Positions 1 through 63,252 of a stretch of DNA of 64,000 bases are shown in pieces. The stretch spans positions 2,728,001-2,792,000 of the forward strand of contig JACCLO010000008.1 of assembly GCA_029448655.1 (NCBI GenBank), read 5' to 3'. Under the pieces are notes generated by a model. That model saw only the letters and a list, made by a program, of their open reading frames with translations. It was not told the DNA's origin and ran no database searches. The position numbers and the translations under genes are program-made. Source of the DNA: Wolfiporia cocos. Its lineage: Eukaryota > Basidiomycota > Agaricomycetes > Polyporales > Phaeolaceae. The first letter of the stretch is position 1. Every line of letters begins with the position of its first letter.

Positions 1-160
1 ATGTATAGAATGGTAACGTACTCGATTGCCGACGCTGGTTGTTGGTGTTGCCCTTCAGGTTAGCATTTGCTGTCTGAGGTTGAGATCAACTGATGAGCTA
101 TCTGCAGATCAAATCGTGCCGTCACAATCTATGCCAGTGCTACTATTATCAAATGACAAA

Positions 161-278
161 AACCACGGCACCCAGGATTCCTGCGTAGTCCCCCACCATG
201 GTACTAACTAGGCAGCACTTTACTTAACTACACAGATCAGACAGGATGTGGTGCTTTCAGAGTCCTATGGCTGTGGAT
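161..278 (-). pseudogene. 5S rRNA pseudogene (CpG-decayed copy)
   Basis: The minus strand aligns end to end with the 5S gene at 51993-52110, including the internal control region and the GGTGGGGGACNACGC segment. Nearly all differences are C-to-T or G-to-A at former CpG sites, for example GGCGG to GGCAG and GACGGGATGCGG to GACAGGATGTGG on the plus strand. The pattern points to methylation-type decay, so I read it as a dead copy. It lies 73 bp left of a TIR element. Confidence 0.85.
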
Positions 279-351
279 GCTTTTTGATTATGCTATTAGC
301 CTACTACTGTGTTATGCCATTGTGACTTTCAATAGGTGAGCCTGTCTCCTA

Positions 352-6232: not shown

Positions 6233-7289
6233 ATCGACAGCAAAGCCACTTAGAACTTCATGCCTGTAGTTGCCTCAGCACAAGGGCCAGCCATCACTTG
6301 AGTGAGTTCTCATACCTGCCCCTGATGTGTTGTGACAAGCTCTACCAATGACTGGCCCTTTGCAGATGGTGAGCAGACTCCCTGTGGACAAAGATATTAG
6401 ACTTGCAATGATTTGGATGTCTGCAGGGCACCTGAACAGCTGCATCAATGTTGAGGACAGCTTGATGGATGAACCAACAATGAGGCAGTGGTGTAGAACT
6501 GACAGTGGAAGGCCTCACTTGTTTGGGTAATATGCAGTCAATTTTTCAACTGTCACCCATGTGATAGGACTTAGTGTACAATGAGACTTGGCATTCAACC
6601 ACCTACTAGCACACAATGTATTCGGTACCCCTGTTCAACCAGGGCCCCATTTCAGAATTGTTCAGAGTTATCAACCCTTCACCCTTATATCAGGGCTTCT
6701 AGCTACCTTCTGTATTCAACTACAGTACAGATCATGTTTCAACCACTGTTGTGCTCAACCACAACATTCTCCTTTGTCATTATATCATACTAGCCTTATG
6801 GACTTAGTGGTAGCAGTACCAAGGACACTATGACCTCAATCTATATTTGATGGTATATAACCTGATGTATATACTGGCTGAGCTCTTCAGCTCAACCTTG
6901 TTGTATAACAAGGATCTTATACCCATTCTCAAACTTGGGTGACTGTTACAGTATTTTGTTTTTTGAACACTTGCAGAACTCACCATTGGGTGAATACAAT
7001 ACAGGGACTTGTTGCGCAACCAACTCCCCTGGCTACTCATGACTCTATTGGGTACATCCCCAGTTGTACTAGTGTACAGGGCTTGTTTCAGGATTGACAG
7101 ATTCAACTCTGTCCTTGTTTCATATTTATTGATACTGATGTACAGATGGCATTCAACTGCCATCATCATTACTATCGATCATTTCAGATATATCACTACA
7201 TACCTATCATACATTTCAGACTATAGCATAGATAGTAGTGGTGATATCTGGGAATGGACAGGAATCCAGATAACCTAATGTAGTATATA

Positions 7290-8895
7290 CGGTGACTTAC
7301 AAAACTGTTGACAAGATTGCTTGACTTACATTGTTGTGGTCATATCTTGAGCTACACTGCATGGATTTTCATGAATACTTGTTGGAAAGCCATATATCTC
7401 GAGTGCTCTATGATACTGCAATGATAATATCTTGTCTCATCAAAATCAAGAATCACAATTTTCTTTAAAGGCCACCAAAATCAACAGTTTTGTAACATGC
7501 ATCCCAGACCATAAAAATCCAATATTTCTAGCACTTGGTGTATCCTCCTTTGGCTTTCAATGCTGAATCTTCCCTCTCTGGCATACTTTGGATCAGGTTC
7601 TGACATACAGACATGTCAATAGCCTCTCATTCCTTCTCCACTCTCTCCCATAGCTGGGTGATCCCATTGGGTGGTTCCTCATAATCTGCAAGTTTTCTTT
7701 TGAGGTGGCTCCATAGATGTTCTATGGGAGTAAGGTCTGAGACTGAGTAAGCCACAACATAGTCTTGATACCATGCTCTTGGAGCCATTTCTGTGCCTTC
7801 TTGCTAGTGTGCTTGGGGTCATTGTCCTGCTGAAATACCATCTCCTCCACAGTTTTCCCCCAATGCTCCAAGCTATTCTGAAGCTCATCCTTCAGAATGT
7901 TTACATAGAGGTCTGAATCCCTCTTTCCATCAATTCTGCATGCAAACTCTACTCCCTCCCAGCTCATACAGCCCCACATCATCAATGATTCACTACCAAA
8001 CTTAAGGGTACCCTGAACTGGCCTGTCACTAAGTCCTTCTCCAGGCTTCTTCTATGCCCATTGCCTCCAATCTGACCCCAAACAATTAATCTTGGTCTCA
8101 TCAGACCATATAACCTGCTTCCAGTCATCCAAAGTCCAATGTTGGTGGGCTAGAGCAAAGTCCATTCTTGCAGACTTATGATGCGCAGTAAGCTTAGGCC
8201 TTTTCCACTTCACCATAGCCTTCATCCCAGCTTTGTTTAGTGCTCTGCACACAGTCCGTGCATTGATTGTATTTCCTGTGACATGTGATAGGGCCCTAGT
8301 CACTGCAGGAGCAGTGCTTGCCTTGTCAGTTCCAATAAGATAGGTGGCATAGTGGAGGTTGGTAGTGGTGAAAATAGAAGGATGGCCTTCTTTAGCCTTT
8401 GGAAGTCCAGAGAAATGCTGTGCATGCAGTTTACTAATTGTTGAATAGTGAACACCAATCTCCTTCCCAATCTGACAACAAGATTTTCCCTGATTCAGCA
8501 AAAAGAGAATGTGTTGGGTGGTATCAGCAGAAATGGGCTGGTGCATGATGGTGGTCAGAAGCAAGTGAGTGTTTGTGCTTGTTTATGAGTCTATGAGTCT
8601 TTGATATCATCACATGACTAATATCCTCACACTACATAGCCTACAAAATGAAATAATGAAAGATATCCATAACCAGAGCTGTCAGTTACAAAACTGTTGA
8701 CAAGGGTGACCTCTAAAGAAAATGGCATATCTCTCTGACAACATTGTCAAATATTAGAGTAGAGATATCATTTTGAAGCATAGATGTATGGCTTTGGGAC
8801 TCCATTACATTTTCCCTATTTCATACAGAATAGCTTGAGATATAACCAAAGCAATGTGAATTAAGCAATCTTGTCAATGGTTTTGTAAGTCACTG
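7290..8895 (-). mobile_element. Tc1/mariner transposon with long degenerate TIRs
   Basis: The element is flanked by TA (7288-7289 and 8896-8897). Its ends read CGGTGACTTACAAAAC and, inverted, CAGTGACTTACAAAAC. The inverted similarity extends weakly for about 215 bp. An inner inverted motif, GTTACAAAACTGTTGA, occurs near 7483 and 8690, so each arm carries an outer and an inner end-like sequence. It encodes a broken Tc1 transposase on the minus strand. CpG is strongly depleted. It is the youngest insertion in the V > X > Tc1 nest. Confidence 0.9.
7570..8564 (-). pseudogene. Tc1-type DDE transposase, broken
   Basis: Cut-and-paste transposase of the Tc1 group. From the right, an N-terminal helix-turn-helix region (IGKEIGVHYSTISKLH) leads to the first catalytic Asp in VIWSDETKI. 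The second Asp lies in FQQDNDPKHTSKKAQ. The third acidic residue lies in a PIEHLWSHLK motif near 7690-7720. A stop near 8052 separates the first two blocks, and a frameshift near 7722-7750 separates the second from the third, so no active protein can be made from this copy. The three catalytic positions remain readable, which supports the Tc1 assignment. Confidence 0.88.
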
Positions 8896-9887
8896 TAAAC
8901 TTGTGTAACTAGTGTCGAGGTTCTTCAGTTCAACCTTGTCGTACAAACAAGAAGTCTTATACTCATTCTCAAACATAGGAATATGCTCAGTATATTCTGA
9001 GCCCTGAATGACTAAGTCCTCAAAGTGCACACTGACTTCTCAGACTTAGGCAAGTCCTCTATTTCAACTTGCACCCCAAACAGATATATTCTTTTACACA
9101 TACTGAATATCAAGTGACCCTTAGAGTCTTCACAACCTAGGGCTTGAAGGCTGATACAAATAGGATATTATCCAGCTTTGCACACATCCATGAGACTTAG
9201 TGCAGAAGATTAATATTCGTGATTTGAATATAACAAACAGGTATACAACCCGTAACAGTGACCAAGCTCTGCCAGTATATCATAGCTCTGACTGTACAGT
9301 AGCCACCTTGGAGTCTACAAGTAGTGTGCTACTTGATACGCTAAGTCACTCACTCAGTGGACTTAGCTGAATGGATATTTGATCCGTAACATCACTGGGC
9401 CAACATACATAGTGAGACATTTGCCAATTGCCTGACTTATCTGTACAAAGTCAGGCCACATACATTAAATAAAGCAAGAAAAAAACACACCTTAGGATAG
9501 TCCCTGCGTGCTGAGCGCAAGCATCTGCTCAGCTATCTCGTCACAGTCGAAACCTTGCCTGTTGCACAAAGGAATTTGTTTAAACCACTTCAGGTTATTG
9601 TAGTCCTTTGCAGCATTCTCTGTCATTCTACATTTGCTGCTGCCTCCAAATAGATTCTTGTATTCCACATCAAGTGTTTTCACCTCGTTGAAGTTGTCAG
9701 TGACCTGAGCTTTCAGCCAGTGCACACTTTGAGCATGGTGTGCTAAGCATTCATGTTCCTTATAATCGGTCAAGTTGTCCAGATTACTATCTTGTATGGA
9801 TATGCTGTTAAGACTTAGAGAACTACTGTATTTCTTCTCCAAGATTTCCTTGATGTCAAGGCTCTCCCTGGGAGGAAGCAGAGTAAG

Positions 9888-10622
9888 TGTTATGGGTTGT
9901 ATACCTGTTCATTATATTCGAGTCACAAATATAAATTGTCTACACCAAGTCATCTTGACTTGTTGTTCATGTAGAATCATTCAGTGTTAAGTTGAAAGAC
10001 TAATACAATATCCAATATACATTAGGGGATATGTTGGTTTGGGGTCAAGTCTGGGAGCTGTAATATCCAGTGCTCATTAAAGGATATTATTAGTTCAGTG
10101 AGCGGGTTATAGAATAACTCACCTAAGTCTGAGAGTCTGTGTGCACTTTGAAGACTTAGTCATTTCTGGACTTGAGAATACACTGAGCAAAGTTCCTTCA
10201 TCTGAGAATGAGTATAAGACTCTTGTCACTACAACAAGGTCAAGCTGGAGAGCCTCAATCAGAGTCACATGGATTTATATACTATGCTGAGTATCTAAGG
10301 TCCTATGCATCCCAGATGTCACCACTACTATGTTTTACCTAGTCTTAAATGTATGATAAGTATGTAATGATATATCTGTAACAATAGATAGCAATTATAG
10401 GGCATGGCAATTCAACACCATCAGTCAATCATATGATAAATTCAAAATGATGACAGGGTTGAATCTGTCAGTCCTGAAACAATGACACTATTCTAGTACA
10501 ATCAGGTTTACACCCAATGAGACCATGAATCCCAGGGGTGTTGGTTTCACAACAAGTCCCTGTATTGTATTCACCCAATGGTGAGTTCTGCAAGCATTTG
10601 TGAAAATAAAATAACTGTAACA
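9888..10622 (-). mobile_element. Solo LTR, family X (copy X6), minus orientation
   Basis: Reverse complement of the X family, from TGTTATGG to CTGTAACA. The flanking pentamers are GTAAG (9883-9887) and GTAGG (10623-10627), one transition apart. It splits the polymerase gamma pseudogene between its C-terminal tail and palm region. Confidence 0.85.
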
Positions 10623-11537
10623 GTAGGATGTGATGGCATAACACAGTCCATGTTGACCTCTTTCCATAGATATTTGTCAATATTGACCACTGAGAAGAAT
10701 GCTACACCCTATGGGAGGTCATTGATACCCAGCTTGAACATGAAGAGACTGTGAGTCCATAGGTTGGCAATCTGCAGTGCAAGTGTGGCCCGATACTGAT
10801 CCTCCTCTTTGACCAGATAATGCAGCTTGTCATGGATGGAGATCAGGTAATGCACATGAATAGTGTACTTCCTAATCAGATGGTCCACTGTGATGATGAG
10901 GAGATGCAGATAATTGACACTGGATGACTGGAAAACCCAGTTAATGCATGACATCATGTAATTCCCACCAAAGGTTTCAGGCAGGTATTCCTTCAACAGT
11001 GCATCCATCACTCCACATCAAAGTGCAGGCATCTGAGGCTTTCCGGACATCACAATCTCTTCAAGCTTGTTGAACACAAGCCTCTGCATTTCACCATGCC
11101 AGAACTTCTGGCCAAACCATTGATCATGCCAGATGCTCTTGCCTTTCGTTGATGCATACAACTTCTTGGACACCTTTTGTGCCTTGCCAGGAGAAAGACT
11201 CACATTTGCTTGTAGCAAAAGTAGCACTGTGCGATGCATGCCCACATCGTGGATCCATGAATAGTTGAATACCTTTGCTTGGTCACAGAATATGCCCAGG
11301 ATCTTTGCAGCCTTCAAGTGCAGGTCTGTGCCCATGGCTTTGTCCTCTCAAGGGTGTTCCACCATCACACCATCACACCATGTAGACTGAACTGAGCATT
11401 TCTCATAATACTTGCAATCCAGACCGGATAACCAGATCATGGGCACACCATCCCCTTCAGATTAGACCCAATGAATTTTGTTACATCACTGGTGGTGAGC
11501 CACCTATTTTTAATTGTGCGATGTGTTTCCTTGCTCA

Positions 11538-12069
11538 TGTTACGGTCTGCGCAGGGACTACTGAATATCTTCTGTTGATACCTCACTGGAGGAAGGGACT
11601 TAGTGTGCAACCACTTTACCATGCGTTTATTTCTAGGGATCCCCACTCAACCGGTGACCCTCATTTCATGTATAACAACCCTATGCCCATAGCCTTGCGA
11701 TGTATCAGGTTCTAGCTGATGTCCTGTGTCTAACTACAGGGTTCTTACGTTTCAGCCACTGTTGCACTCAACCGCAATGCTTTGTATTTGTTACTTTAGT
11801 ACGCTAGCCTTATGGACTTAGTGGTAGCAGTACCAAGGACACTATGACCCCGATTACAGGATCGCAGTATATAACCTGATGTAAATACCTGTCGGGTTCC
11901 TCAGCTCGGCCTTGTGGAATTACAAGGATCTTATACTCGTTCTCAAAAGCTTAAGCAATTAAGCCCGCAGCTTGTATATCAACGCTCTGACTCTGCTGAG
12001 TCTGACAAGTAGTGCGCTACTTGACATGTTGAGCAACTCGACTTAGTTATTTAGCTGAACAGATATTCG
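11538..12069 (+). mobile_element. Solo LTR, family V (copy Vc)
   Basis: TGTTACGG to CCGTAACA with a perfect GCTCA duplication (11533-11537 and 12070-12074). Removing it and one pentamer rejoins the polymerase gamma pseudogene in frame, so the target was still recognisable coding sequence when the LTR element landed. Confidence 0.92.
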
Positions 12070-12567
12070 ATCCGTAACAGCTCATAGCGATGGCCAAGGG
12101 AAGCAAGACCCCCCACTTCTCAAGACACTCAGTCAGTTCTATGTTAGGTAGGGCTGCTATAATCTGAACATTGTCCCACTGATCATCAGAAGGGCTGTAC
12201 TCATCAGCATTACACTAGCCAGATACTCACAGCTTCTAGATTGACATATCTTTGTCCTATCAGTGCCCAATCCAGCTGACTGAACCAAGGACTACTCTTC
12301 CATTCCCCTGTATGCATTTTCCCCATCACTAGTCCGGCAGGCTCAACCAGATGCAATTTTGCTGTGTTGGACAGCCTGTTGCATGTATGCTCCAGATTTT
12401 TCTCTGAGTGTTCACTGCACTGCTTGCTGACTAAGAGCAAGCTGGAGCTCATTGTAAGCATGCCAGCAAAGGAAACTGGGCTTGGGCACATTTTTAGGTA
12501 CACAGGAAACATCTTTGCCAATACAGCATGTGTGACAGCAGTGTGTGTCGCACAGTAGTTAAGGTAG

Positions 12568-13202
12568 TGTTACGGTTATTTTGATTTTTGAACAATGACA
12601 GAACTCACCATTAGGTGAATACAATACAGGGACTTGTTGCGCAACTAACCCCCCTGGCTACTCATGACTCTACTCGGCTCAACCCCAGTTGTACTAGTGT
12701 ATAGGGCACGTTTTGACTCTGACAGATCCAACTCTGTCCTTGTTTCATATTTATACTTATCAAATGTTTTGTACCATAGCATAGATAGTATCGGTGACAT
12801 CTGGGACAGACAGGACTCCTGAAACCTAGCATAGTATATAAACTGATGTACTTAACGTTGAGGCTCTTCAGCTCAACCTTGTTGTACAAACAAGAAGTCT
12901 TATACTCATTCTCAAATGTAGGAAACTATGCTCAGTATTCACCAAGCCCTGAACCAACTAAGTCCTCAAAGTGCACATTGACTTCTTGGACTTAGGCAAG
13001 TCTTATATTCTAGAAGACCTGCTCTTGAAACAATTATATTCTCTAGTGTGTATTGAATATTGAACGATCCCCTAGAGTCTTTGACTTAGGGCCAAAGGCT
13101 TATTTAGGTTATATTTTCCTTGCACTCATCTACAGGACTATGTGCAGAAGAACAATTTATATTTGCAATTCAAATATACAAACAGGTATTCAACCTGTAA
13201 CA
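12568..13202 (+). mobile_element. Solo LTR, family X (copy X2)
   Basis: TGTTACGG to CTGTAACA, perfect GGTAG duplication (12563-12567 and 13203-13207). At 635 bp it is shorter than other X copies through an internal deletion after the TTTCATATTTAT segment. It sits in the polymerase gamma pseudogene. Confidence 0.92.
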
Positions 13203-13226
13203 GGTAGTCCTGGAGATACATGTGGA

Positions 13227-13630
13227 TGACACAAAACTTGTCATATACACACTATAAACAGTCCAAGGGTCAACGCCAAGGATGAACGTCAAACAACCAC
13301 TATCAGACAAGTACACAAAGACTAAGAGATGAGGGACAAGACCCAACGTCTAGATTGAACAGTCTGAGGTTGTAAGACCTCAGACGACAGACTATATACT
13401 AGCGTTGCAGCAAAGGCCTAAGTACTTGCCCTAAAGGAGGCCTGAGCGTAGTTACTGGCAACTACAGTATGTATGACTAATCTGTCAGGTGATCGGACCA
13501 AGGGGGGTGCAACACGTAACTGTAAGGCCACTATGTACGGTGGCATAAGGATCATGTGACTAATAGACAAAAGTACCTGAGTTCGAGCCCGGCTGGGCAC
13601 AGGCGCCTCCATGCCACAGAATCTGTGACA
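13227..13630 (+). mobile_element. Solo LTR of the TGACAC...TGTGACA type
   Basis: It begins TGACACAAAAC and ends AATCTGTGACA, with a perfect GTGGA duplication (13222-13226 and 13631-13635). The ends match the gypsy LTR at 22097-22789 and solo LTR Z, so it belongs to the Ty3/gypsy-like group. It keeps more CpG than the X and V copies around it. A GTTCGAGCCCGG tract at 13578 resembles a tRNA B box. Confidence 0.88.
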
Positions 13631-13790
13631 GTGGATTGTTTTGGGTGATCTTGTGAGGAAGTCATTTCAGAAGTCCTTGTCCATCATAATGCCACAATGT
13701 AGTTTTGCAATGTCTGCAAGCAATTCCATGAAGGTGAGCTCCTCTCAGAGCACTCCAGATATGGCATGGGGCATAGCTTTGTTATTGTTG

Positions 13791-15120
13791 TAGTCAAGTC
13801 ATAGTTATGCAGCACATATACAGTACCGTGTGACTAGAGTGTGACATCTCACAGGGCTGAGGGTCACATATGCAACAGTATGTCACACATCATCACAAAC
13901 CTGTGACAATCTGATAATGCATAATGCATCATGCAAATTGGAGTGACACAGTCGTACCTGACTGTGCTACTGGCTCAGCCGGGAACCCTCATCCTCTAAG
14001 ACCACCGCCGCTGTCGGGACTAAGGCACTGCATCAACGTCGCTCAGAGCCCCCAGTCCAGCTTGTGAGAGAGTGAGAGCGTCGGCCAGCCAGCTCGCACA
14101 GAGAGAGGAGTGAAAGGGGCATCTAGCCCATCGTTGAGAATAACAAAACTGGGGGCAGTAAGGCTACCCAGTTGTGCTATAAGTACATACACTTGTAGGT
14201 ACCGTGTCTACCCTGAAGTGCAGGTCCATGCACATCACCATGTGACAACTAACTGGTAACTACTGTGACGTACTGGGCACCTGACCTAGTAAGTGCTAAT
14301 CATATAGATAACCCTGTAATCTAATCTACTGTAACGAACGTAGGCGCTAACAGGAATAAGAGGACTCCAGAGCAATACTGTGACATGGAGACAGTTATGA
14401 TGCATTATGAGATAGTTGACTGTACTCAACCAGGGGGTGTCACACTGTGACATTCATGTGTGGCAGACTAATCTGGTATGATCAGGACTTGTCTATTACA
14501 AGATATGTAAATTACAAAAACAGGATACATGCACTGTCCTGGGCATGAAAGGATCCAATCTATGTTACATTGTTCAGCTTGGCTGAGACACCTTTTGGGA
14601 TCACTCTATGACCATGATCACTATCCAAGCTGCTTGTGAGCCAGAGAGTCCCTTGTGGTATGCATCCATAAACATCTGCAAATGCATATAGAATTTATGT
14701 AAACATCAACAATTAACTCACACTATAATGAGACAGTATATCATACCTATGAATGTTCACTTTGTGGATTGTATGCATGTACTCTTGTGCAATGGTCTCT
14801 CAAGACTACATGCTGGGAGGCACAATCTGTATGTCTGAGTGTTGAGAGCATATATTCAATGAATAATGTTGTCCTCCTGAATTGTGTGATGCTGACCAAT
14901 TTGATGGGTCAGCCACATAAACAGCCATATAAGAAGGGACTGATGCACTTTATCAAAAATTGAAAACCTGAACCTTTGTGTTTACAAGAGATCTCAGATT
15001 TTAGATTTTACTCAAATGGTCTTTGTCTATTGTTATATCAAATGCAAGTTGCCCACTCTGTCAAACTTGCCTCAGCATGACAGATTTTGGTCATGTGATG
15101 TGGTTGAGAGAGAGAGAGAC
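13791..15120. repeat. Repeat-derived DNA with a further LTR-like stretch
   Basis: Between about 13952 (TGACACAGTCG) and 14449 (CTGTGACA) the sequence resembles the gypsy-type LTRs, with a TCTACCCTGAAG and GGTCCATGCACA block like those in LTR Z and the gypsy LTR. The flanking pentamers do not match. From 14450 to 15120 I see only AT-rich decayed DNA and a short GA dinucleotide run at 15107-15118. Confidence 0.4.
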
Positions 15121-15710
15121 TGTTACAGTCTGCACAGATACGCTTAATTATTTCTCCTGATGCCTCACTGTACAGAGGGACTTAGCATTCAACCACTTTA
15201 CTGCATGCTTCATTATAGGTATCCCCACTCAACTGGAGATCCTCATTTCATGTACAACAACCCTATGCCCATAGTTCCTTGTCATATCAGGTTCTAGCTG
15301 ATGTTCTGTGTCTAACCACAGGACTTCTACATTTCAGCTCTTGTTGCATTCAACCACAACACTTTGTATTTGTCTACTTAGCACACTAGCCTTACAGACT
15401 TAATGGTAGCAGTACCACAGACACTATGACCCCAGTCAATAAGTTCTAGTATATAATCCGATGTAAATATTCATTGAGTTCCTCAGCTTGACCTTGTTGA
15501 ATTACAAGGATCTTATACTCATTCTCAAAGGCTTGAGTAATTAAGCCCTCAACTTGTATATCAACACTCTGACTCTGTGGAATCTGACAAGTAGTGCACT
15601 ATTTGATATACTGAGTAAATCAACTTAGTTGTTTCAGCTGAATGGATATTCAATTGATAACAGTAACTTGCCTTAGTTATTTCAGCTGAACAGATATTTG
15701 ATCCATAACA
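15121..15710 (+). mobile_element. Solo LTR, family V (copy Vd)
   Basis: TGTTACAG to CCATAACA, perfect GAGAC duplication (15116-15120 and 15711-15715). The last 90 bp hold a tandem duplication of the 3' end (TTAGTTATTTCAGCTGAA repeated), which makes this copy about 40 bp longer than its relatives. Confidence 0.9.
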
Positions 15711-15828
15711 GAGACAACCATTTATATGGGGAGGGGCAACCATGGTGAGGCAGCAAAATCTGAGCATCCAGCATCTATCAGGCACCACAGTCCCTGCCAG
15801 ACAGGTCTGTCCCCACCATGAGCTAGAC

Positions 15829-17117
15829 TGTTACGGTTGTAACATGGGACGGAAACTGTGAGACAACATTACCTGATTAGGCAATGGGGGATGTGCATAT
15901 ATACCTGGAACCACAATGTTGCTTAGCCGTGACATTACGCCCTTTTGGTGAAGGGGGCTAAAGGCCTTGTGTTTGCACGTGACTGGTTCCCACATCCGAA
16001 CATAACAGTATGTCGGTCATTGGTTTGACTTCCACTGTCGACCTTTGGCTGAGAGCATGCCAGGTGACCGCTTTCTGGGGGGCGGTGAACGGTAGCTCAG
16101 GGGTGGGTATACGGAGCACGTTACTCCAACCCAATTGGGATATCACCCAGCTGCGAAGTGCTGAGCCCACCGGGAAGGTGGTAAGTGTGTTGGGGACAAT
16201 ACACCTTAGATGGGAGATGGTGTTACAGTTGTAACACGGGACAGAAACTGTTATGGTTATTTTGATTTTTTCGGACACTGGCAGAACTCACCATTGGGTG
16301 AATACAATACAGGGACTTGTTGCACAACCAACTCCCCTGGCTACTCATGACTCTACTGGGTGCATCCCCAGTTGTACTAGTGTATAGGGTGCATTTAACC
16401 TTTGGCAGATCCAACTCTGCCCCCATTTCATATTTATCATTTGTTAGCTGATAGATGGTGTTCAACCCACCATCATCATTCCTATCTATCGTTTTGGATA
16501 TATCACTACATACTTATCAAATGTTTCATACTATAGCGTAGATAGTATCGGTGACATCTGGGACGGACTTGACCCCTAAAACCCAACGTAGTATATAAAC
16601 TCATGTACTTATTGTCGAGGCTCTTCAGCTCAACCTTGTTGTACAAACAAGAAGTCTTATACTCATTCTCAAACATAGGAAACTACACTCAGTATTTCTC
16701 TCGAGCAACCCGAATGACTAAGTCCTCAAAGTGCACATTGACTTCTTGGACTTAGGCAAGTCTTATATTCTATTAGACTTGCACCCTGAACAGATTATAT
16801 CCTCTAACACTTATTGGATATCGAACAATCCCCTAGGAATTTCACCTAGGGCCTGAAGGCATCTAATGAGTATTTGCCTTGCACTCGTCCACAGGACTAT
16901 GTGCTGAAGAACGATCTATATTCACGACTTGAATATATGAATGGGTATTCGACCCGTAACAGAGACTGTGAGACAATGTTACCTGATTAGGCAATGGGGG
17001 ATGTACATATATACCTGGAACCACAATGTCACTTAGCCATGACATTACGCCCTTTTGGTGAAGGGGGCTAAAGGCCTTGCATTTGCACCTGACTGGTTCC
17101 CACATCTGAACGTAACA
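15829..17117 (+). mobile_element. TRIM-like miniature LTR retrotransposon W
   Basis: Two direct repeats of 179 bp, LTR1 15829-16007 and LTR2 16221-16248 plus 16967-17117 after LTR X3 is removed, enclose only 213 bp of internal DNA. The ends are TGTTACGG and CGTAACA, and the whole is flanked by a perfect TAGAC duplication (15824-15828 and 17118-17122). A purine run, GATGGGAGATGG, directly precedes LTR2, as a polypurine tract should. No protein-coding capacity. The terminal 7-8 bp match families X and V, suggesting mobilisation by their integrase. Intact LTR-internal-LTR structure is rare in this window. Confidence 0.9.
16249..16961 (+). mobile_element. Solo LTR, family X (copy X3), inside TRIM LTR2
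   Basis: TGTTATGG to CCGTAACA, 713 bp. The flanking pentamers are GAAAC (16244-16248) and GAGAC (16962-16966); the homologous TRIM LTR1 has GAAAC, so the right copy mutated. This makes a three-level nest Q > W > X3. Confidence 0.9.
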
Positions 17118-17207
17118 TAGACACACATAGTGCAATGGTATTGGTATAAAGGCTTGTTGGGGAAAAGGTTTTGCAGCTCATAATAAATTGATTAGAAATA
17201 TGTGATG

Positions 17208-17757
17208 TGTTATGGTAATATGTGGTCAGGTATTTCTTTTTACTATTTCCCTATGCAATAGGACTTAACATACAATGAGACTTGGCATTCAACTGCCTGA
17301 TAGCATGTAGTGTACTGGGCACTCCTATTCAATCAGGGCCCCATTTCAGAGGTATCAACCCTCTACCCTCATATCAAGACTTCTAGCTACCTTCTTTATT
17401 CAACTATGGTACCCATCACATTTCAGCCACTGTTGCATTCAACTGCAACATTCTTAGCTGTCAATATATTGTACTGGCCAAATGGACTTAGTGGTAACAG
17501 TACCAAGGACACTATGACCCCAATTACTAGTCAACAGTATAAAATCCCAATGTATATGCTGACTGAGCTCTTCAGCTCAACCTTGTTGTATAACAAGGAT
17601 CTTACACTCATTCTCAAACTTGGGTGACCAAGCTCTGCCAGTATATCAAAGCTCAGAGTCTATGGTAGCCACCTCCAAGTCTACAAGTAGTGCACTACTT
17701 GATACACCAAGCAACTTGTACAGTTGACTTAGCTGAATGGATATTCAATCCGTAACA
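17208..17757 (+). mobile_element. Solo LTR, family V (copy Vb)
   Basis: TGTTATGG to CCGTAACA, perfect TGATG duplication (17203-17207 and 17758-17762), inserted in transposon Q. At 550 bp it is a good reference for the family because nothing interrupts it. Confidence 0.92.
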
Positions 17758-18557
17758 TGATGAACACTTTCTTTGGGACAGAATTTCTCTAATTAAATCC
17801 CTTCATATTGATCTGAGCATCCAGTAGATGACACAGCATGCTATGAATGATTTGCCAAAATTCTGTTCCAAACATTCTTTAAGGAAATACATAGATCAGA
17901 GGTATATACATCTACTTCATGCTCTAAACAATTATCCAAGGAGGAGATGCATTGCCATCAATCAGAAGAAGTATATATCAAAGTGCCTTTTGGGCGGAAT
18001 GAAACAAGACTCAAACCATCTGAAATCAAGCAGAACAAGCTCTAAGATAGTGTGCTCCAGTTAGATATGCTCTATTATAGCCTTATCCTGAGGTATGATT
18101 TATTTCATGTGGACATTAGACACAGACGCATTTGCCTTCCTAATCGGGATGTATGCGCCACATGCACGTCCTATCACGCTTGCGATTGATGGCAAGTCAC
18201 GTCGCGTCTTGTTGAATGGCGCGTCGCGTTTGATGGCAACTAACGCTTTTTTGGTGAGCTTGAACAGACCCCCGTTAATAGCGTATGAGGCCCTCACGTA
18301 GCGTATGCCAGCGTCAATAGCGCCACAGTCATGATATCAGCGTTCAATTGCCATTAGAGGTAGGTCAGTCATACTCCGAAATAAAAAGCTCAAGACGCAA
18401 TTCTTGGCGGGATTGCCCCTCCCCAATTTATACCCCGCAGTCAGTATCCTAAGTACATGTGCGGCAGCTAACTAGTCATGTGACGTGATTGAGTATGACT
18501 CCTTGGGTCTATCTTACGCATATTGCCCTAGTCCTTCCACAATCGTGTCGCTCAACG

Positions 18558-43075: not shown

Positions 43076-46000
43076 TCACAGCTTGTTTTCCAGAGCAGCG
43101 CCGGAGATACGGCCCAGGTCGAGGAGATGGCTGATGACCTCCTCCGGGCTAGTGACGTGCCACGCTGCGAGGGTGCGCTTGGTGCTGTGGCCGACGGCAG
43201 TGGTGAAGATGCCCTCGCGGCTGAGGGCGAGGTCGACGGGCTCGAAGTGGGTCGCGGGCTCCTTTGCGACGAGGGTGACAGATAGCGGGGGCTCCAGTTT
43301 CGTCTTCTCAGCGTCACCCTGGAACAGCAGCAGGGCGCGGAACATGTCTTCGTCGGTCTGATCGATGCAACACAGTCAGCGTCTACGGCTGGGACGGTAT
43401 TATGCCAGACATACCTTGTCATCTCCCGCGCAGAAGACGAACTCCGCGTCAGGGTTGTAGTACAAGATCCGCTTGACAATCTCGCCCTATAACGTGATCG
43501 GGTAAGTAGCCGATAGAGTGAGACGATTTATCTTGCACACCTTGTTGACGGCCAGAGGACGGACCTCGAGGTTCTTCTTGCCAACGAGGACTGCAGCTCG
43601 AGTGAGCACCTGCGCACGATCTCGAACAAGCCTACTAACCTTCGATGGGCCGCTTTCGTGCAAGGTTGTTCTCGAGGAGGTCCTGGCATTGACGGCATTG
43701 GAAGAGACTGGCCAATAGTGAGAACTCGGTGGACGTTTGGCAGCGTACGTCACTCACCCCCACTCAGGGTCACTCGCGCGGTAGTGCCACGTAATCGAGC
43801 TCTTCTTGACCTCGATGTGGCTACCAGTTGTGCGCTAACACGAAATCGAAGTAAGCCTTCCAGGCCCTTCCATGTGTGGACAGTAAAATACGCACCTCGG
43901 TGTAGTACTTGAAGATCTCGAGCACCTCGCCCATCCAGTCCATGTCGAGCGATTCGGTGAAGTTCGTCCACTCCCTGTGGCCGGGCTCGCGCACGAACCC
44001 GCCATGCTCGGCGGACATGCCGAGGTTCTTGATGTGGCCAAGGTGCTGCTCGAGGAACGCGCCGTCGCGTCCGGAGATGATGAACACAACGTTCTGCGGG
44101 TCGTTCGAGAGCCGCTCGAGCGCCTCGAGGGTCTCGGGCGATGGCACGGCCGCACTGGGGACACGCACGATCGGGGCGAGCGTACCCTGCAGGTTGCCGT
44201 CTGTTAGCCAAATCGAGTCACGTTCGAACATTCGAGAACGTACATCGTAATCGAGCAAGAACAGCCGCTTCTTCGCGCTGACGTACCGGCTCTCCAGACG
44301 GTCCTTGGGCATCGGCGGGGTCATGCGCGCGAAGTTCTGTCCGCCGATCTGTGCCAGGAGCATCTTCGCGAGCATCGCCGCCCACGTGTGCGACGTGTGC
44401 GTCGTGACGGTCTTGTACAGCTGCTTGTGGCGGTTCAGCTTCTCCTCATCCGTCATCATCAGCCCACGGTGCATCGCAGCGGCAACTTCCTGATAATCAA
44501 ATTCCGAACATTAGCCTTAAAGAGGAATTGTGGCGCAGACGACTACGTACCCCAAGGTTCCAAGGGTTCACCTGGAGCGCATCGGCCATGTTGCTCGAGA
44601 TGCCCATGAACTCGGAGAGAACGAGTGGGCTGCGCTTCGAGCGCTCCTGAGCGATGACGAACTCCATGGACGTCGTGTTCATACCATCACGGAGGGGCGT
44701 GATGACACCGAGGTCCGCCACCGACAGCAGGGCGTAGAACTCGTCCTTCTTGATCGTCTGGTGGCTGCACATGTCGCGCTCAGTATACGTCTCATGGCAT
44801 GTTACAACGAGATGACCCACTAGTGGTGAACAGGAATGAAGTCGAGCGAGCCGTATTCGCCATTGATGTGCGCGACAAGCTCAGACACCTGGCGCTCGAG
44901 CTTCGGCGAGTCCGACAGAGCAGGGGACGTCACCTGGATGAGGACGACGTTGCCGATCCACTGCGGGTAGTCCTGCAGCAGCTTCTCGAATGCGCGCAGC
45001 TTCTGCACGACACCCTTGACAGCGTCGAGCTTGTCCCGCCCGACGATGATCTTCTTGCCCTCGTACAGCGCACGGATCGCCTCCGCCTTGGGTTCGATAC
45101 CAGGGCGCAGCCTGATTAGGTGTAAATAGCACTGTCTTTCGAGCTGGAATAGTGACTTACGTGTCCTTCTCGACGCGCTCGGCGTCTACGCCTACGGGGC
45201 AGTACGCGATCGCCGCGACATGTCCCTGGACGTCGATTCCGCCCGTGGAGGTGATCTCGTAGCCGCACACACGCACACACGTCGACGTGAAGTGGCGTGA
45301 GTATGAGTAAGTCTGCGAACGCCCATCAATATCTTGTACAGCGAGACCATAGAAATTGTAAGATGCGTACTTGGAAGCAAATGAGGTTCGCGCCCAGCAT
45401 CCCGTCGAGGATCTCCTTCCTGCGCGGCAGGCAGCGGAAGATCTCCGAGCTCGGGAACGGCGTGTGCACGAACAAGCCGACGGACGCCTCGGGCAGCGCC
45501 TGGCGCAGCAGCGACGGCAGCAGCAGCAGGTGGTAGTCATGAATCCAGATCAGGTCGCCTGGACGGTACACCTCCGCGACGCGCTGTGCGAACGCCGCGT
45601 TCACCGCCGCATACGACGGCCAGTGCGCATCCGCAGACGCGTACTCCGTCGCGACATCCTGCCAAAGTAGGTAGTGGAACAGCGGCCAGAGGGCTGTGGA
45701 GCGCAACAGAGCGGTCAGTATCTATTCTGGGCATTCGGATAAACAGATGGTCGATGATCGACGCCAAATCCCTCAAGGGTGTTTGTGAGGCCGTCTGTCC
45801 CGTCCATCACCTCGCCTGCAATACCAAGGTGGCCAAGACGCCCAAGTCCCTGCCCAGTTCCTTGGACGATCACCGACCTGTCCGAAGATAACGCGGGACA
45901 CCGACATGAGGCTGCGATAAGCATTCCTATTGCGAGCGCAGCGAGTGCACTGCCCAGCTACTGCCCGAGACGCATCCTCGCCTAGCGTGCAGACCGCCGG

Positions 46001-53322: not shown

Positions 53323-54055
53323 AGGCGGAGAATGAGCTTTAGGCCTGAGGTTCAGGGGGCCAAGAGTGCTGGGGTGCTGAGGACAAAGGCCAGCACAGGT
53401 CGAACTCTTAAATCGGCACAACAGTGGGAATATCATTCAGCTGACAGCGCTGAGAACGATGCTTCCTTATGCTGCGCCGCGATTTAGTTTCGGCTCCCCC
53501 CAATGCACAGTTTAGGAAAGTGCTAGGTCACATTGCAGCAAAAGAACCAACAGAAGTGCTACAACGCAATCGTAAAAGGTAAGTACTGATTGACCGCGGT
53601 AAGTATTATTTGCAGTGATCGCAGAAACAATGGTTGCTTCCGACGATTGTGACTTTGGGTGCCAATGCAACTATAGGGTGTTGTAATCGCTGACTGCCAT
53701 ATTGGAATGCCGTTGACAGCGGGACTTGGAAATCTACGACACATTTTACACAGGGCTTGGCAAACGGAGAGTGCAGTACTTGTTCCTATATACGACCATC
53801 AATTGCCCTGAAATTGCGTACGTGAAGAGGCCCAGGCAGTTGATCACGGGCGCCTATCTGAGCCATCCTTCCCATCGTCCACTTCGCTCATAACCTAGTG
53901 CTATGGCTTTGGGATCCAGTGAGCACAATCATGTTGTAATCCGTGGCATACTGGTCTTGCAAGATCGAAGTTATGAATCGCATCAACTTGCCGCATTGCA
54001 GGTGTTCATCGGGATGCGAAGTGCCTCTTTTCCGGTAAGCGGAGACTTGAGGTTA
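53323..54055. other. No gene recognised
   Basis: Upstream region of the minus-strand hypothetical gene, then non-coding DNA up to the MITE. Confidence 0.4.
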
Positions 54056-54597
54056 CAGTCGTTCCCGAAAATAATGTCAAAGTCACGTTTTTTTGCGCGT
54101 CGTCTCGACGCGCCAAAGTTCCGAGCCAAAGTTCCGAGCCATCTTCCGACTCGTAAGCGCCCGTTGCTCGCACCTACTTGCATTTGTGTACTGCACTGTT
54201 TTCTACAGCTATGGGTAATAGAAGAATCAACAAATATATGAAACTGTGTACTCTTCGTCCATGGCAAGCGGTTGGGTCCAACATGGTATTTGTGAGATTC
54301 TAATCATCTCCCGCTAGTCTACCCTTGGGACTCGGAGCACATCTTCGAGGGCTTCGGAAATTCCTGTTCTGACTGGCTAATATTATGATATCATCACATT
54401 CCAAATTGCGCTGCAATAAGCCCTGTAGGAAATGCGACATGTTTGAGCTCAAGAGAAAGGCTCGAAACGATGGCATACAGGTGCGCTTACGGGCGCTTAC
54501 GAGTCGGAAGATGGCTCGGAACTTTGGCTCGGAACTTTGGCGCGTCGAGACGACGCGCAAAAAAACGTGACTTTGACATTATTTTCGGGAACGACTG
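54056..54597. mobile_element. Mariner-type MITE with 109-bp perfect TIRs
   Basis: The first 109 bp (CAGTCGTTCCCGAAAATAATG and on) are repeated inverted at 54489-54597 without a mismatch. TA flanks both ends (54054-54055 and 54598-54599). Each arm holds a tandem CCAAAGTTCCGAG pair and a GCGCGTCG...CGACGCGC palindrome. No coding capacity. Perfect arms suggest recent activity or conversion. Confidence 0.88.
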
Positions 54598-54601
54598 TAA
54601 T

Positions 54602-55645
54602 TGGGGAGGGGCAACCCCGCCAAAAATTGCGTCCAGAGCTTATCACTTCGGAGTCTGAATGACCTACCTCAAACGGTAATTAAACGCTGAAATCATGATT
54701 GCGGTGCTATTGACGCTGGTATCAGTGCATGAGGGCCTCATACGTTATTACTAGATATTAGCGGTGGCCCATGCTAGGTGGTATACACTACCAAGAAGTA
54801 GTCGTACATACTATACATGTCCAAGATATTGTTAATGCAATGATTGTCTCTATCTCGAAGGTCAATCTCTCACTCGGATTCGTTGCTGATATCATTGAAT
54901 GACATCATGCTTTCAGTATCTGAGCCAGCCTCGTCAACAGAATGACATATTGCCTGGGTCTTTGCCATCAAATGTGATGCGCTGTTAAACAAGACGCGAC
55001 GTGACTTGCCATGAAGTGTGATGCGATTCAGATGCGACGTGCCTGTGGCGCGTGCATCCCAATTAGGAAGGGAAATCCATCTGTGTCGTGTCCACACGAA
55101 ATAATCTATACCTCAGAATGAGGTTGGAATGGGGCATATATAACTGAACTTCACTAATGTCTAGCTCTTTCTACTTGATCTCAAATGGTTTGAGTCTTTT
55201 CTTGCTTGCTTGATTCCGTCCAAAAAGCATTCTATAATGTACTTCTATCAATTGATGGGAATGCATCTCCTCCTGGAGTAATGAGTTATAGCATGAAGTA
55301 GGTGCATATACCTCTGATCTCTGCATTTCTTCGAAGAACGTTTGGGACAGAATTTCGTTAAATTACTCATAGCGTGCTGTGTCATACCCCGGATGCGCAG
55401 ATTAACATGAAGCGATTTAATTAAAAGAATTCTGTCCCAAAGAAAGTATTCATTTTGTAGTTCTCATAAATCTACTTCACTATAATGAGGCGCGAAACTT
55501 TTTTCCTGGCGAGCCTTTACACTGATACCATCGCGCTATGCGCGTCTAGCTCATGCCGGGGAGAGACCTGTCCGGCAGGGGCTGTGGCGCATGATAGACG
55601 CTTGCCGCTCGGATTTTGCCGCCCCGCTACGGTTGCCCCTCCCCA
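54602..55645 (-). mobile_element. TIR transposon Q, copy 2
   Basis: The ends are TGGGGAGGGGCAACC and inverted GGTTGCCCCTCCCCA, with a perfect 7-bp duplication CTGTAAT (54595-54601 and 55646-55652). The duplication is formed from the terminal bases of the neighbouring MITE, so Q landed later, exactly at the MITE end. It is colinear but inverted with Q copy 1. CpG sites are kept here. No transposase recognised. Confidence 0.88.
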
Positions 55646-56863: not shown

Positions 56864-59800
56864 ATGATTGCTGGGATGTCACCCAGAAGCTTCGCAGCAA
56901 TTGGTAGCGCGCGGTCATTCCACTCTAGCGGACCGGCGTGGCAGAAACAGCGGTTGTTTGCTCGCTGGAGACAGTGGATTCTTGATGCTGCCAAATCGGT
57001 ATTTTTCTTCAAAAAACGCACAAAAGGCGTGGGCGGTCCTGAGGCGACTAGTGAGACGAGCAACGCCACACCTACAGGTGAGTACGCTGCTTTATTCAGC
57101 GAACGCGGCCCACCAACATAATCCTAGTGAGACGCAACGAACTTGGCATACAGCTGCTTTCGCGAAATCTCCATTCCCAGATCTTCCGCAATGCTTCTAT
57201 ACCTGCACCGCCGGAGTCGTACGTGCGCATCGCGGAAGACCACTTGTGCATGCATGGGCTTGAGCCATCGAAGCATGGTGCAGACCAATCCGATGTTTCG
57301 TTCACCCTTCCACCACTTCACGGCGACAACATTGATCAACACTTCTACTCGATTGGTATGGCTGCCGCGCAACCTTGGCTCGGGTTTGCACAAGAGCTTG
57401 CAGGCGCTGAATTGCCTCCCAGGCCGGAAACTTGGAGTGTGGCACCGGGCTGGACACGGTACGTTCACCAGGCAGATGGCCGCTTTTCCTTCGAATCGGT
57501 TGAGTATCCGATGTTCAACGGAAACCCGGAGCAAACGCTCGTCTTTGACGTGGAGACACTGCCAGAATACACGACCTATTCCGTCATGGCTTGCGCAGTC
57601 TCCCCAAACGCATGGTACTCTTGGGTGTCACCCTGGCTGCTTGACCAGACGGAAAACTTGCAGCAGTTGATTCCGATGGGCGATCCTTCTGTACCGCGGC
57701 TCATCGTGGGACATAACGTGTCCTATGACAGGCTTAGAATTAGAGAGGAGTACAGTGTCGATACTACACAGACTCGCTTCCTCGATACGATGGCATTGCA
57801 CATCGCAGTGAATGGTTTTTCCGACGACCAGCGAATTGCATGGCTCGGCTACCGCAAATATAATGTGGCCGCACAAGAACCCTTCCACGATACCGAGACG
57901 GAGGACGGCAAGCAGAGAGCCAAGCGCTGGGAACAAGTCACTTCCGCGAACTCTCTTGCAGAAGTTGCAAGACTGCATTGTGGCATCGAGATGGACAAGG
58001 AGACGCGGGAGGATTTCCTCGAGTGCACACCTGCACAGATTCTTGACCGGATACAGCACTATCTAAGCTACTGCGCTAAAGATACGGCGGTTACTCAAGC
58101 TGTTCTCGCGAGGACGTGGCGTGCATTTCGCCACCAATGCCCTAGTCCGGTGTCCTTCGCCGCCGTGTTAACGATCGGCTCGAGTTTCCTCACGGTCAAT
58201 GAACAGTGGGAGCAATATCCGGAATATGCGAAGTGTACTTCCGACAAGATGTATGGGCAAGTAACACAGCGCCTCGCGGATCTCGCAGAGCAAGCCAGGG
58301 AAATGATGCATTCTAAGGAATGGAAGAACGATGTTTGGTTAAGCCAGCTGGACTGGACGCCTCGACAGGTTACGAAGACGAAGGGTGGGAACTCCGATTC
58401 AAAAGACGTAGGTACTCGAACTGTGACTTGTTGGAAAGTTCGATGATTTGAAACATGATTATGGTTATAGGCAGTGATGCCGAATTGGTACAAGGAGCTA
58501 ACGAAACCAAAAAAGGATCTGCCTCCGGGCACAGTGGACATCTCACTAGGCATTCGCATCTCACCTATTCTACTTCGATTGTCCTGGCGGGACTGGCCTC
58601 TATATTACTCGCGCGAGCACGGCTGGGTGTTTCGTGTGCCTCACAAAGCCAAGTTCGGGGCGACTCACAAGGCATTGCAGTTTGCCCTGCAAGAGGACAA
58701 TGCCTTGAATGCGCTCAGCGAATGCAGTTATTCCTTTTATCCGGTACCGCGATTTGATGGTTCAACGGCAAAGCTAGCAAGCCCACTCTCGAAGTCATTT
58801 ATGCTTACCGCGCCAAAGGGGGCGTTAACAAGCGCTGGGGACGAAGCACAGACCTTGTTTAACTTGAATGCACAGGGTGACTATTGGAAGTCCGTCCACG
58901 ACTCTGCGCGCGAACAAATAGTGGTGTGGCAAGACATGAACGGCAACTCTGGTGAGCCGTCCACGCAGAAGAATGGTAGGAGACTGGGAATCATCCTACC
59001 GATGATGAGCACCATGAGTACGGTAACACGGCATGCGAGCGACAGGACATGGGTCCCGGCGAGGAACGCCACGGGTGATTGGATCGGGTCCGAGCTCCAG
59101 ACCACGGTATGCGCACCGCCAGGATATTCAATCGTAGGCGCCAGTATTCCATCGCTGAATCTCTGGATTTCGAGTATGCTGGGCGATGCCCAGTTCGGAG
59201 TGCATGGAGCCACAGCCCTCGGATGGATGCTTTTGCAGGGCAATGAGGCCGAAAGCACGGACCTGCATACAAGGACCGCTGCTCTCTTGGGTATTTCCCG
59301 CGATGCGGCTGAGGAGTTCAATTGTTCTCGCATCAATGGCGTGGAATTACGTAAGGAGCCGCAGGGTTTGAGCAAGGCTAGCGCCACTCGCAGTCTCATA
59401 GGGGAGCTCGGCAAAGTCACGAACGCCTCTCAGTTCGGCACCTTCACACATAATGATAGGCTGTCCAGGCAAACCTATCGGTGTGGTGGGCTGGAGAGCT
59501 TCATCCACAACAAGTTGAAGAGTATTTCAAAGTCTAGGAAGCCGCAGACGGTGGCTCTCGAATGCTCGATTACGCATGCACTGCGAAACATGTTCAGCTC
59601 AAAGGATGACAAATATGAGATCATACGAATGGAATGGATCATTCAATCGTCTGGCGTTGACTATCTGCATCTCCTCATCGTTGCGATGGATCGTCTCATC
59701 AAGGGCTACGGTATCCGTGCGCGTTACATGATCTCGTCGCACGATGAGGTGCGATATCTTGTCGAGGACCAAGATCGCTACCGAGCTGCCTTGGCACTGC

Positions 59801-60342
59801 AGATTGCCAATTTATGGACACAAGGTTTATTCGCATTCAGATTGGGCATGGACGATCTGCCGCGTGGCACGGCGTTCCTCTCAGCCATTGATATCGACAA
59901 GGTGCTGCGGAGAGCGGTCGATGAGACTTCTACGCCTCCGAAATTCCAGCCTAGCCATGAGACCATTAAGGAGAGCCTAGATATCGCACAGGTTTTGGCT
60001 AAAACCAACGGCGGCTCGTTATGGCCAGATGGTGCCTTCATGCATGCGGCTAGCCAGTTCGAAGCTGGGATTAATCTGACCAACTACAAAGCACCCGAGA
60101 TCCTGAAGCACCGGGCGGAGAGCGAAGCTTGGCTGCGTGCGCAGGTGTCTTCCAAAGCTGGTCTCGGTGCCGCAGCACAGCGCACGAATGCCACCAGCAC
60201 GAGTATCAGCAGCAATTCTCGCGTTAGTGATCGCATGAATGGCCCCAATAAACCAAAAACGTCGACCTCGAGAAAAAGGGACCAACACGATCGGGACAAG
60301 GTCATTGAACAAGCATTCACAGCCAGGCGTAAAGTAGAATAG
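56864..60342 (+). CDS. Polymerase gamma (Mip1) family protein with lost polymerase site
   Basis: Exons 56864-57077, 57128-58407 and 58471-60342 give 1121 residues in one frame. The N-terminus is a mitochondrial presequence with an ARSFHSS cleavage-type motif. 3'-5' exonuclease motifs are intact: DVETLPEY (D212, E214), GHNVSYDR (D272) and YCAKD (Y386, D390). The polymerase half is recognisable to its end (WLSQLDWTP, SMLGDAQFGVHGATALGW, IIQSSGVDYLHLL, SSHDEVRYLV with D923). However, motif A reads GASIPSLNLW where the family has GADVDSxELW, and motif B reads RDAAEEFNCSRING where it has RDxAKxFNYGRIYG: the catalytic Asp, the Lys and both Tyr are gone. The region after motif B (about 790-830) is also diverged. 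Probably a mitochondrial pseudo-polymerase with possible exonuclease or DNA-binding function; the active Mip1 must be elsewhere. Confidence 0.9.
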
Positions 60343-62165: not shown

Positions 62166-63252
62166 CTAGGCCTCGATGAACGTCTTGACGTTCTTCAGCC
62201 AGCTGACATACTCCTGCATAATGGGCAAGTGTAAGCATGCGTTGAAGTCATAGAATAGGCAGGTTCCGACCTTCTGCTCCTTGTACTCGGCATACTCGGG
62301 CACAAACAATGCAAGCTGCTCAGAGATGCCGCGCTCGTGAAGGAACTTCTCGAATCCTTCCTGCACAGAGACATCGAGCGTATCAAACTGCGGGCCGATG
62401 TAGAGCCCGCGGCGCTTCCAGTCAGCTTCTGCGGTGAGCTCCGTGCCGAGCTTCGCGTCATTGTAGAAGGACATGTTGTCAACAATGAACTCGCCCTCCT
62501 GGCACATTGCGTCCACGGTAATAGCACCATTCGCGCCAGCCTAGCATCATGCGTGTCAACATGGGGAATCGAAGTGGTCGGCGAGACTGAGTTTACGTTT
62601 ACCTTCGTGATCGAGAAGGAGCAGCGGATGGGGTAGGAGCGGCTCAACTCCTCGGGGTCCACATCACTCTCCTCCTGCTCAAACTCCTGCTCCGGCTCGT
62701 TCTGGATGTCGGCAATGGAGAACATCAAGCGGATGCTGCATATAGGGACAAAAAGTCAGTAAGGAGCTTGAGGTAGACTAAAACAGACGACGTCATACGT
62801 CTCGTTCCCGAACTTCCGCGTAATTGCGACCTCGTCGTTTCCGGGGACGTCCTCAATCTACACGCATATATCCAGCTGAGTAGAGTGAGACGTATTGATA
62901 AGATATATGCGCACCTCCCAAACACCCTGCGCCTTGAACGTCTTCAAGAACTCAGGCTCCTCAGCAGCAAAACTTGACTGCTCATACTGGAGCTCCTCGC
63001 CGAGCTTTTGCGAGAGGTAAGGGTCAACTGCATGGGTTACAAATCACCGCTCATATTGCACCGAAGCGTACGAAACTCACCAGAACCCTCGCCAAAAACG
63101 CGAGCAGACACCGAGAACGCTCTTGATGCAGGCGCGGCGCGAGCGGCAAATACGGGGAGCGCAGAGCGCGTCAACGAGCGTGACGCCGTGCGGGCAGCAA
63201 GTGCTCTGGTTGAAGAAAGAGAGACTTGACGGAACGCACGAATGGCGGACAT
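62166..63252 (-). CDS. mam33: Mitochondrial matrix acidic protein, MAM33/p32 family
   Basis: Trimeric acidic ring protein of the mitochondrial matrix (yeast Mam33, human C1QBP/p32), involved in mitochondrial translation and respiratory assembly. Five exons: 63081-63252, 62915-63027, 62799-62857, 62603-62735, 62166-62540; phases agree, 283 residues. The first 50 residues are Arg/Ser/Ala-rich without acids, a clear presequence (ending RAFSVSARVFGEG). The mature part has the acidic linker EPEQEFEQEESDVDPEE and the family C-terminus (GLYIGPQFDTLDVSVQEGF, then FLHERGI and YVSWLKNVKTFIE). Start chosen at 63252 because the presequence begins there. Confidence 0.93.

Follow-up and report, generated by a model that had tools for sequence, protein, structure and literature searches.

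What becomes of a mitochondrial DNA polymerase gene once the active site for synthesis is gone, and why might such a gene be kept? The question is raised by a Mip1-like (polymerase gamma) gene, here termed B, which lies in a 64,000-nucleotide stretch of Wolfiporia contig JACCLO010000008.1 (C75:2728001-2792000, hereafter the window). The source assembly very likely represents W. hoelen, and the comparisons made below with W. cocos MD-104 are thus between two Wolfiporia species. A preliminary description of the locus had proposed a polymerase gamma paralogue with an intact exonuclease and a dead polymerase site, retained by selection for something other than DNA synthesis. On the evidence presented here, B is probably a Mip1 paralogue that arose as a DNA-level duplicate of a canonical gene, A, lost its polymerase function, and has been selectively kept as a mitochondrial 3'-5' exonuclease.

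Splicing of the three exons of B, with junctions picked so that the frame is maintained and A is matched, yields an uninterrupted 1121-codon gene with zero stops and zero frameshifts, bearing out the full-length frame and splice sites proposed previously. The same two exon junctions are present in P0001, a deposited protein of W. cocos MD-104. All eleven residues named in the preliminary description (D212, E214, D272, Y386, D390, S723, P725, R775, E779, C783 and N787) were recovered at their given numbers in the spliced translation. Motifs were surveyed in an alignment of 136 rows drawn from the best 120 of 589 and the best 120 of 1501 matches of two protein searches, a sampling under which weaker dead paralogues may conceivably exist elsewhere; 134 of these rows are other than B and P0001, and include A and a further MD-104 protein, P0022. 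Asp/Asp at motif A and Arg/Lys/Tyr/Tyr at motif B are found in 134/134 of these rows, as are the five exonuclease residues. The DEDD-type proofreading exonuclease signature (Asp-Glu in Exo I, Asp in Exo II, Tyr-Asp in Exo III) is complete in B, which has lost both Asp of motif A together with the Lys and both Tyr of motif B. A third motif A residue, N728 in B and not named previously, is Glu in 134/134 other rows. In family A enzymes, synthesis is abolished once the first Asp of motif A is gone. From such family knowledge B is predicted to have lost polymerase activity, to possess exonuclease activity, and to be located in mitochondria. With respect to the predicted presequence, the motif R.[FLI]H[ST][ST] occurs within the first 60 residues of 28/136 rows, including B and P0001, and is absent from A and P0022.

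Directly after motif B we also identified a rewritten segment of the fingers (residues 789-836), for which no clear similarity to the polymerase gamma family was found in any of six frames, and which has 0 differences between B and P0001. Frameshift or inversion was considered as the source of this segment and rejected: across six protein frames and both DNA strands no fit stood clearly above shuffles, the best were frame +2 against A, with 33/500 shuffles scoring as well, and the reverse DNA strand, with 49/300. A further difference concerns the spacer, which comprises 18 residues in B versus 209 in A. Spacer loss is not supported as the inactivating event, because eight other rows with spacers of 17-47 residues keep every catalytic residue (P0107, P0065 and P0091, P0041, P0035, P0048, P0052, P0045, Suillus where named; some of these are perhaps gene-model gaps). 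In gene A (C75:2670593-2667990), the spacer of ~200 residues, viewed by eye in the aligned polypore rows, resembles an internal repeat in which WLSQLDW and PxWY each occur twice; one unit of this apparent repeat is kept in B, and the alignment of the B orthologue to yeast Mip1 lacks the spacer.

An AlphaFold model of P0001 was used only to place the whole protein in the Mip1 fold. Its best Foldseek match was yeast Mip1 9c52 (template-modelling score 0.56 by query length), and the alignment of P0001 to yeast Mip1 spans residues 68 to 1015. In its N-terminal half, thumb and exonuclease site, B corresponds to Mip1. Confidence was low in the palm and fingers of this model (48 rows, with P0022 entered twice), and similarly low in those of a canonical control, P0065, modelled from nearly the same rows; the low confidence is therefore not taken as evidence for a collapsed palm.

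A search of the 64,431,438-base genome, possibly incomplete, with a family A polymerase model and both protein halves in six frames identified three polymerase gamma places (A, B and C), all on one contig. Copy A corresponds to a second Mip1 with canonical DVDS and RxxxKxxxY motifs. A and B each contain two introns whose positions and phases correspond; B therefore arose by DNA duplication, and the introns held in common rule out retroposition as its origin. Comparison of 10-kb pieces flanking A (L004 and L005) with the window revealed no match between the A and B flanks beyond a repeat element. A candidate miniature inverted-repeat transposable element, with terminal inverted repeats of ~110 bp, is located at window 54053-54602; a second copy (L004 8608-9256), which matches it at ~93% identity in two pieces, precedes the start of gene A by ~400 bp, and L006 (9869-9991) contains a related fragment.

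Copy C, a decayed A-type pseudogene ~43 kb from B, is 76% identical to A over its best piece, where its identity to B is 40%. It is an internal control for decay, displaying what a broken copy looks like here. The observed-to-expected ratio of CpG dinucleotides is 0.18-0.30 in the bins holding C versus ~1.0 around B, and the depletion around C fits excerpts of a W. hoelen study (PMC9503964), which describe methylation as mostly CG and following transposons. More broadly, window positions 1-18000, which contain C, are repeat-rich and CpG-depleted: eight of the nine 2-kb bins have ratios of 0.09-0.36, and the ninth 0.80.

Phylogenetic analysis placed B inside the fungal polymerase gamma tree, as sister to A within Polyporales. 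In a quick LG+G4 tree of 38 proteins, A, B and the W. cocos orthologues formed one clade with a support of 99 by the Shimodaira-Hasegawa-like approximate likelihood ratio test; in a careful tree of 31 proteins, comprising N-terminal and exonuclease columns only, the A+B clade received 93/91, below the mark for a star. Both proteins also have a shortened exonuclease-domain loop of 21-22 residues, compared with a median of 67 and 26 in the next shortest row. As judged from these comparisons, A and B are Wolfiporia sisters, with the duplication placed in the Wolfiporia lineage. B should accordingly be regarded as a polymerase gamma by descent; on functional grounds it ought not to be classed with the DNA polymerases.

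Rates since the duplication differ sharply between domains. On a fixed tree, the palm/fingers stem branch of B is 3.0 changes per site versus 0.25 for A (~12-fold), and the exonuclease-domain stem 0.56 versus 0.22 (2.5-fold); the stem of B in the 38-protein tree is 1.83 changes per site. Among near-invariant columns, taken as those with 97% or greater invariance across 118 other rows, B has changed at 71/205 in palm/fingers and 5/71 in the exonuclease domain (P = 2e-6), and A at 4 and 1, respectively.

The earlier expectation that random decay would have brought stops was borne out by neutral simulation. Runs that started from A's codons and introduced substitutions only, up to the number of altered near-invariant sites seen in B, produced an expected 7.7-7.9 stops over the polymerase half (482 codons), where B has 0; stop-free runs numbered 0/600 at each of three transition biases. 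For palm/fingers alone, 4.3-5.0 stops were expected and 0.5% of runs were stop-free. Nor did the ratio of nonsynonymous to synonymous divergence (dN/dS) from A approach 1 across the gene, being far lower in both halves: ~0.11 in the polymerase half (dN 0.36, dS 3.4, rewritten segment excluded), ~0.13 in the exonuclease domain (dN 0.26, dS 1.9), and ~0.09 in the N-terminal and exonuclease regions together (dN 0.26, dS 2.7). At four-fold sites of the polymerase half 56/85 differ between A and B, versus a neutral expectation of 0.46-0.52 that takes this half of B as neutral with equal dS on both branches (P = 2e-4 to 7e-3). B thus displays none of the features used to recognise pseudogenes (stops, frameshifts, a neutral codon pattern). 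Its GC content at third codon positions is 0.60, compared with 0.66 in A and 0.47 in flanking intergenic DNA, although these values were not used as proof.

Comparison between species provided a second view of constraint. P0001 (W. cocos MD-104 SS10), the closest protein among the matches listed, is the orthologue of B, with 29/1120 residues differing (97.4% identity); it also carries two additional residues close to the N-terminus and is one residue shorter at the C-terminus. At all dead positions its residues are identical to those of B. P0022 is the orthologue of A (112/1355 differ), and both proteins are listed on a contig of 1,924,473 bases. Measured at the protein level, with one neighbour gene as yardstick, B has changed more slowly than the gene 3.4 kb upstream, which differs from MD-104 at 18/242 residues before an indel (P = 7e-4) and 25/257 overall (P = 2e-6), or 7.4-9.7%. 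The dead polymerase half is also slower than this neighbour (13/485; P = 0.005 or 7e-5). The MD-104 relative of the neighbour, P0121, is labelled a DUF862-domain protein by one source, and has nine extra residues near its C-terminus, perhaps a gene-model difference. Exonuclease-domain distance between species is 0.019 for B and 0.020 for A. Between A and P0022, change is fast outside the polymerase core (presequence, N-terminal domain at 15/132, spacer), and overall faster than in B. Together, the low dN/dS against A and the between-species identity of B relative to its neighbour support the proposal of selection for something other than DNA synthesis. The sequence of B bears signs of purifying selection, and B looks to be kept by selection as a polymerase gamma with exonuclease but without polymerase function (exo+/pol-), and not to be a dying gene.

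A number of observations weigh against this interpretation. For residues 501-1121, which include the C-tail, dS between A and B is not computable; synonymous sites between the two are near saturation, so that only the inequality is safe; and their dN/dS also counts time before inactivation. The differences between B and P0001 are evenly spread over domains, including the presequence (1/72) and C-tail (6/135), in contrast to A, where 10/36, 12/109 and, in palm/fingers, 3/313 residues have changed. Such evenness is not what domain-specific constraint usually produces, and divergence at the locus could be shallower. The palm/fingers comparison between species (B 8/315, A 3/313) is not significant (P = 0.22), and neither shows nor excludes relaxed constraint on B. 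Among the matches listed, the dead protein is seen in two close species only, and no row named Laetiporus, of the same family, was present among the best 120 matches of either protein search. Finally, A retains an exonuclease of its own, so the need for a second one is not obvious.

The even spread of these 29 differences is what might be expected of a slowly dying gene, free of selection since the loss of its polymerase, whose two copies remain alike through recent divergence of the locus by introgression or low local divergence. We consider this improbable. Shallow local divergence is counted less likely because the upstream neighbour has changed more (18/242 and 25/257, P = 7e-4 and 2e-6, as above), and B has accumulated neither stops nor frameshifts over a stem of 1.83 changes per site, despite the 7.7-7.9 neutral stops expected in its polymerase half. 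Four-fold sites are moreover near saturation alongside a dN of 0.36, and pseudogene C, still 76% identical to A over its best piece, already contains stops and insertions. An origin of the dead motifs in sequencing or assembly error affecting a sole polymerase gamma has a vanishingly small probability: error is excluded because the separately sequenced MD-104 orthologue agrees with B at every dead position of both motifs, and canonical A is present in the genome.

Other explanations accept that B is maintained, and differ over what is selected. As a decoy or regulator, B would owe its retention to the binding of DNA ends or replisome partners, whether in competition with A or as a scaffold for it, and its exonuclease would not be the selected function. 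Constraint does seem to extend over the whole length, as indicated by the polymerase half (13/485 against 18/242 or 25/257 in the neighbour), and excerpts of PMC4773887 report some dominant-negative effects of the human pol- variant H1134A in competition assays. However, the exonuclease domain retains 66/71 near-invariant columns and all five catalytic residues where palm/fingers has lost 71/205, and a decoy would have no need of the catalytic Asp and Glu; we regard this role as unlikely. More doubtful still is a new function of the rewritten fingers, for example as a binding surface for A or a replisome protein, with the exonuclease acting inside a heteromeric complex and labour split between A and B. 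Residues 789-836 are not clearly recognisable in six frames and yet without a difference between the two species, which speaks for such a function; against it, the region is of low confidence in the AlphaFold model, as it is in the canonical control. Of the roles suggested previously (mitochondrial exonuclease, polymerase decoy, replication regulator), the first is therefore the one favoured here, and the choice among them rests on inference.

For B as a retained exonuclease, we propose the following scheme. A normal gene A would have been duplicated at the DNA level in the Wolfiporia lineage to give rise to B, which would have lost polymerisation through replacement of the metal-binding Asp of motif A and the nucleotide-binding residues of motif B, and rewriting of the fingers segment. 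The thumb, the exonuclease and the motif C portions of the palm, all retained, may allow the protein to bind DNA ends, and its intact exonuclease site would degrade 3' ends; as the protein could not re-extend them, the balance would be fixed at degradation. It might act in trans for A by trimming 3' ends that are mismatched or blocked, or alternatively clear broken, stalled or surplus mitochondrial DNA (mtDNA), and would be free to specialise because canonical A exists. Trans proofreading or mtDNA clearance is, we infer, the most likely task of B. Excerpts of published work describe comparable activities: exo- and pol- polymerase gamma alleles of flies complement in trans, and human H1134A, with wild-type-like DNA binding and a stronger exonuclease, complements an exo- enzyme in vitro on a mismatched primer (PMC4773887); loss of damaged mtDNA in yeast is driven by the Mip1 exonuclease (PMC11894172); and rapid degradation of linear mtDNA fragments requires the polymerase gamma exonuclease (PMC6021392). 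A more speculative extension, to which we assign a low though not trivial likelihood, is that polymerase gamma of Wolfiporia has been split into an all-purpose replicase, A, and a permanently degrading B, with the rewritten fingers as a new contact surface, so that proofreading or clearance of mtDNA would fall to a protein of its own.

Table 1. Features of gene B, its related copies, and the remainder of the window (window positions, except where prefixed C75).
Feature	Position	Strand	Details
Gene B exons	56864-57077, 57128-58407, 58471-60342	+	GT-AG introns of 50 and 63 nt; 1121 residues
Exon 1, predicted mitochondrial presequence (residues 1-71)	56864..57077	+	net charge +7 in first 50; RSFHSS motif
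Exon 2, N-terminal and 3'-5' exonuclease domain	57128..58407	+	PF18136, 321.5 bits (cut-off 26.7)
Exo motif I, D212 and E214 intact	57547..57555	+	134/134 other rows identical
Exo motif II, D272 intact	57727..57729	+	translation and alignment
Exo motif III, Y386 and D390 intact	58069..58083	+	translation and alignment
Exon 3, polymerase half	58471..60342	+	PF00476, 24.4 bits, under curated cut-off of 34.3
Motif A, both Asp and Glu replaced (S723, P725, N728)	59134..59160	+	alignment
Motif B (O helix), R775 kept, Lys and both Tyr lost (E779, C783, N787)	59299..59337	+	alignment
Rewritten fingers segment, residues 789-836	59341..59484	+	six-frame comparison with family
Motif C His-Asp-Glu intact (H922, D923, E924)	59740..59748	+	alignment; not named in the preliminary description
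Copy A	C75:2672199-2667990	-	~113 kb from B; 1363 residues; canonical DVDS and R/K/Y/Y; exonuclease site intact
Copy C, decayed A-type pseudogene	13744-13631, 12566-12267, 11538-10622, 9902-9501	-	stops, deletion over motif A, repeat insertions
Upstream neighbour, ~257 residues	52549-53436	-	two database relatives only: W. cocos MD-104 P0121, Mycena crocata P0122
Probable MAM33-type mitochondrial glycoprotein gene	~62166-63251	-	1.8 kb downstream of B; one exon PF02330, 19.5 bits, below cut-off of 21.9
Trehalose-phosphatase-matching frame	43824-44510	-	PF02358, 100.8 bits
Retroelement frame, 977 codons	25554-28484	-	protease and reverse transcriptase domains, weak Ty3 capsid match

Polymerase gamma can both copy and degrade mtDNA, switching from one to the other, and work in yeast and mammals argues for clearance of broken or damaged mtDNA by its exonuclease. 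A natural protein locked into degradation would make this clearance role testable apart from replication, with intact gene A, pseudogene C and the sister species available for comparison. In the literature searched, which comprised open-licence papers only, no described exo+/pol- polymerase gamma (mitochondrial family A) was found; if polymerase gamma has indeed been split as in the speculative extension above, B would be the first described there, and nature's equivalent of the exo+/pol- allele of flies. The previous statement that no fungal counterpart is described stands for that literature; it does not extend to databases, where the B orthologue P0001 has an entry under no more specific name than 'DNA/RNA polymerase'. 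Selectively kept inactivated polymerases, recognised for Pol epsilon, archaeal PolB and bacterial PolX, would thereby be extended to mitochondrial family A.

Among known systems, the closest is Mip1/POLG of family A itself (yeast Mip1 structures 9c51 and 9c52), which B resembles in its PF18136 domain, in the fold match of the P0001 model and in the alignment of P0001 over residues 68-1015, and from which it differs in lacking the Asp/Asp/Glu of motif A and the Lys/Tyr/Tyr of motif B, in its rewritten fingers, and in a PF00476 match under the cut-off. Engineered pol- POLG-A, as described in excerpts of PMC4773887 for flies and for human Q1102A and H1134A, likewise has polymerase activity lowered or lost and the exonuclease kept; these are laboratory point mutants at other residues, lethal in fly development when alone, whereas B is natural and stands beside an intact gene. 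A subset of prokaryotic PolX proteins shows the same exo+/pol- logic in the excerpted portion of PMC12926913, combining a dead polymerase site with a retained PHP 3'-5' exonuclease, but belongs to another polymerase family, with another exonuclease domain, in prokaryotes. The C-terminal exonuclease-polymerase module of Pol epsilon and the inactivated archaeal B polymerases, for which excerpts of PMC2669801 propose a role in replication-complex assembly, also represent long-kept dead polymerases; they are of family B with both sites dead, in contrast to B, in which the exonuclease site is intact.

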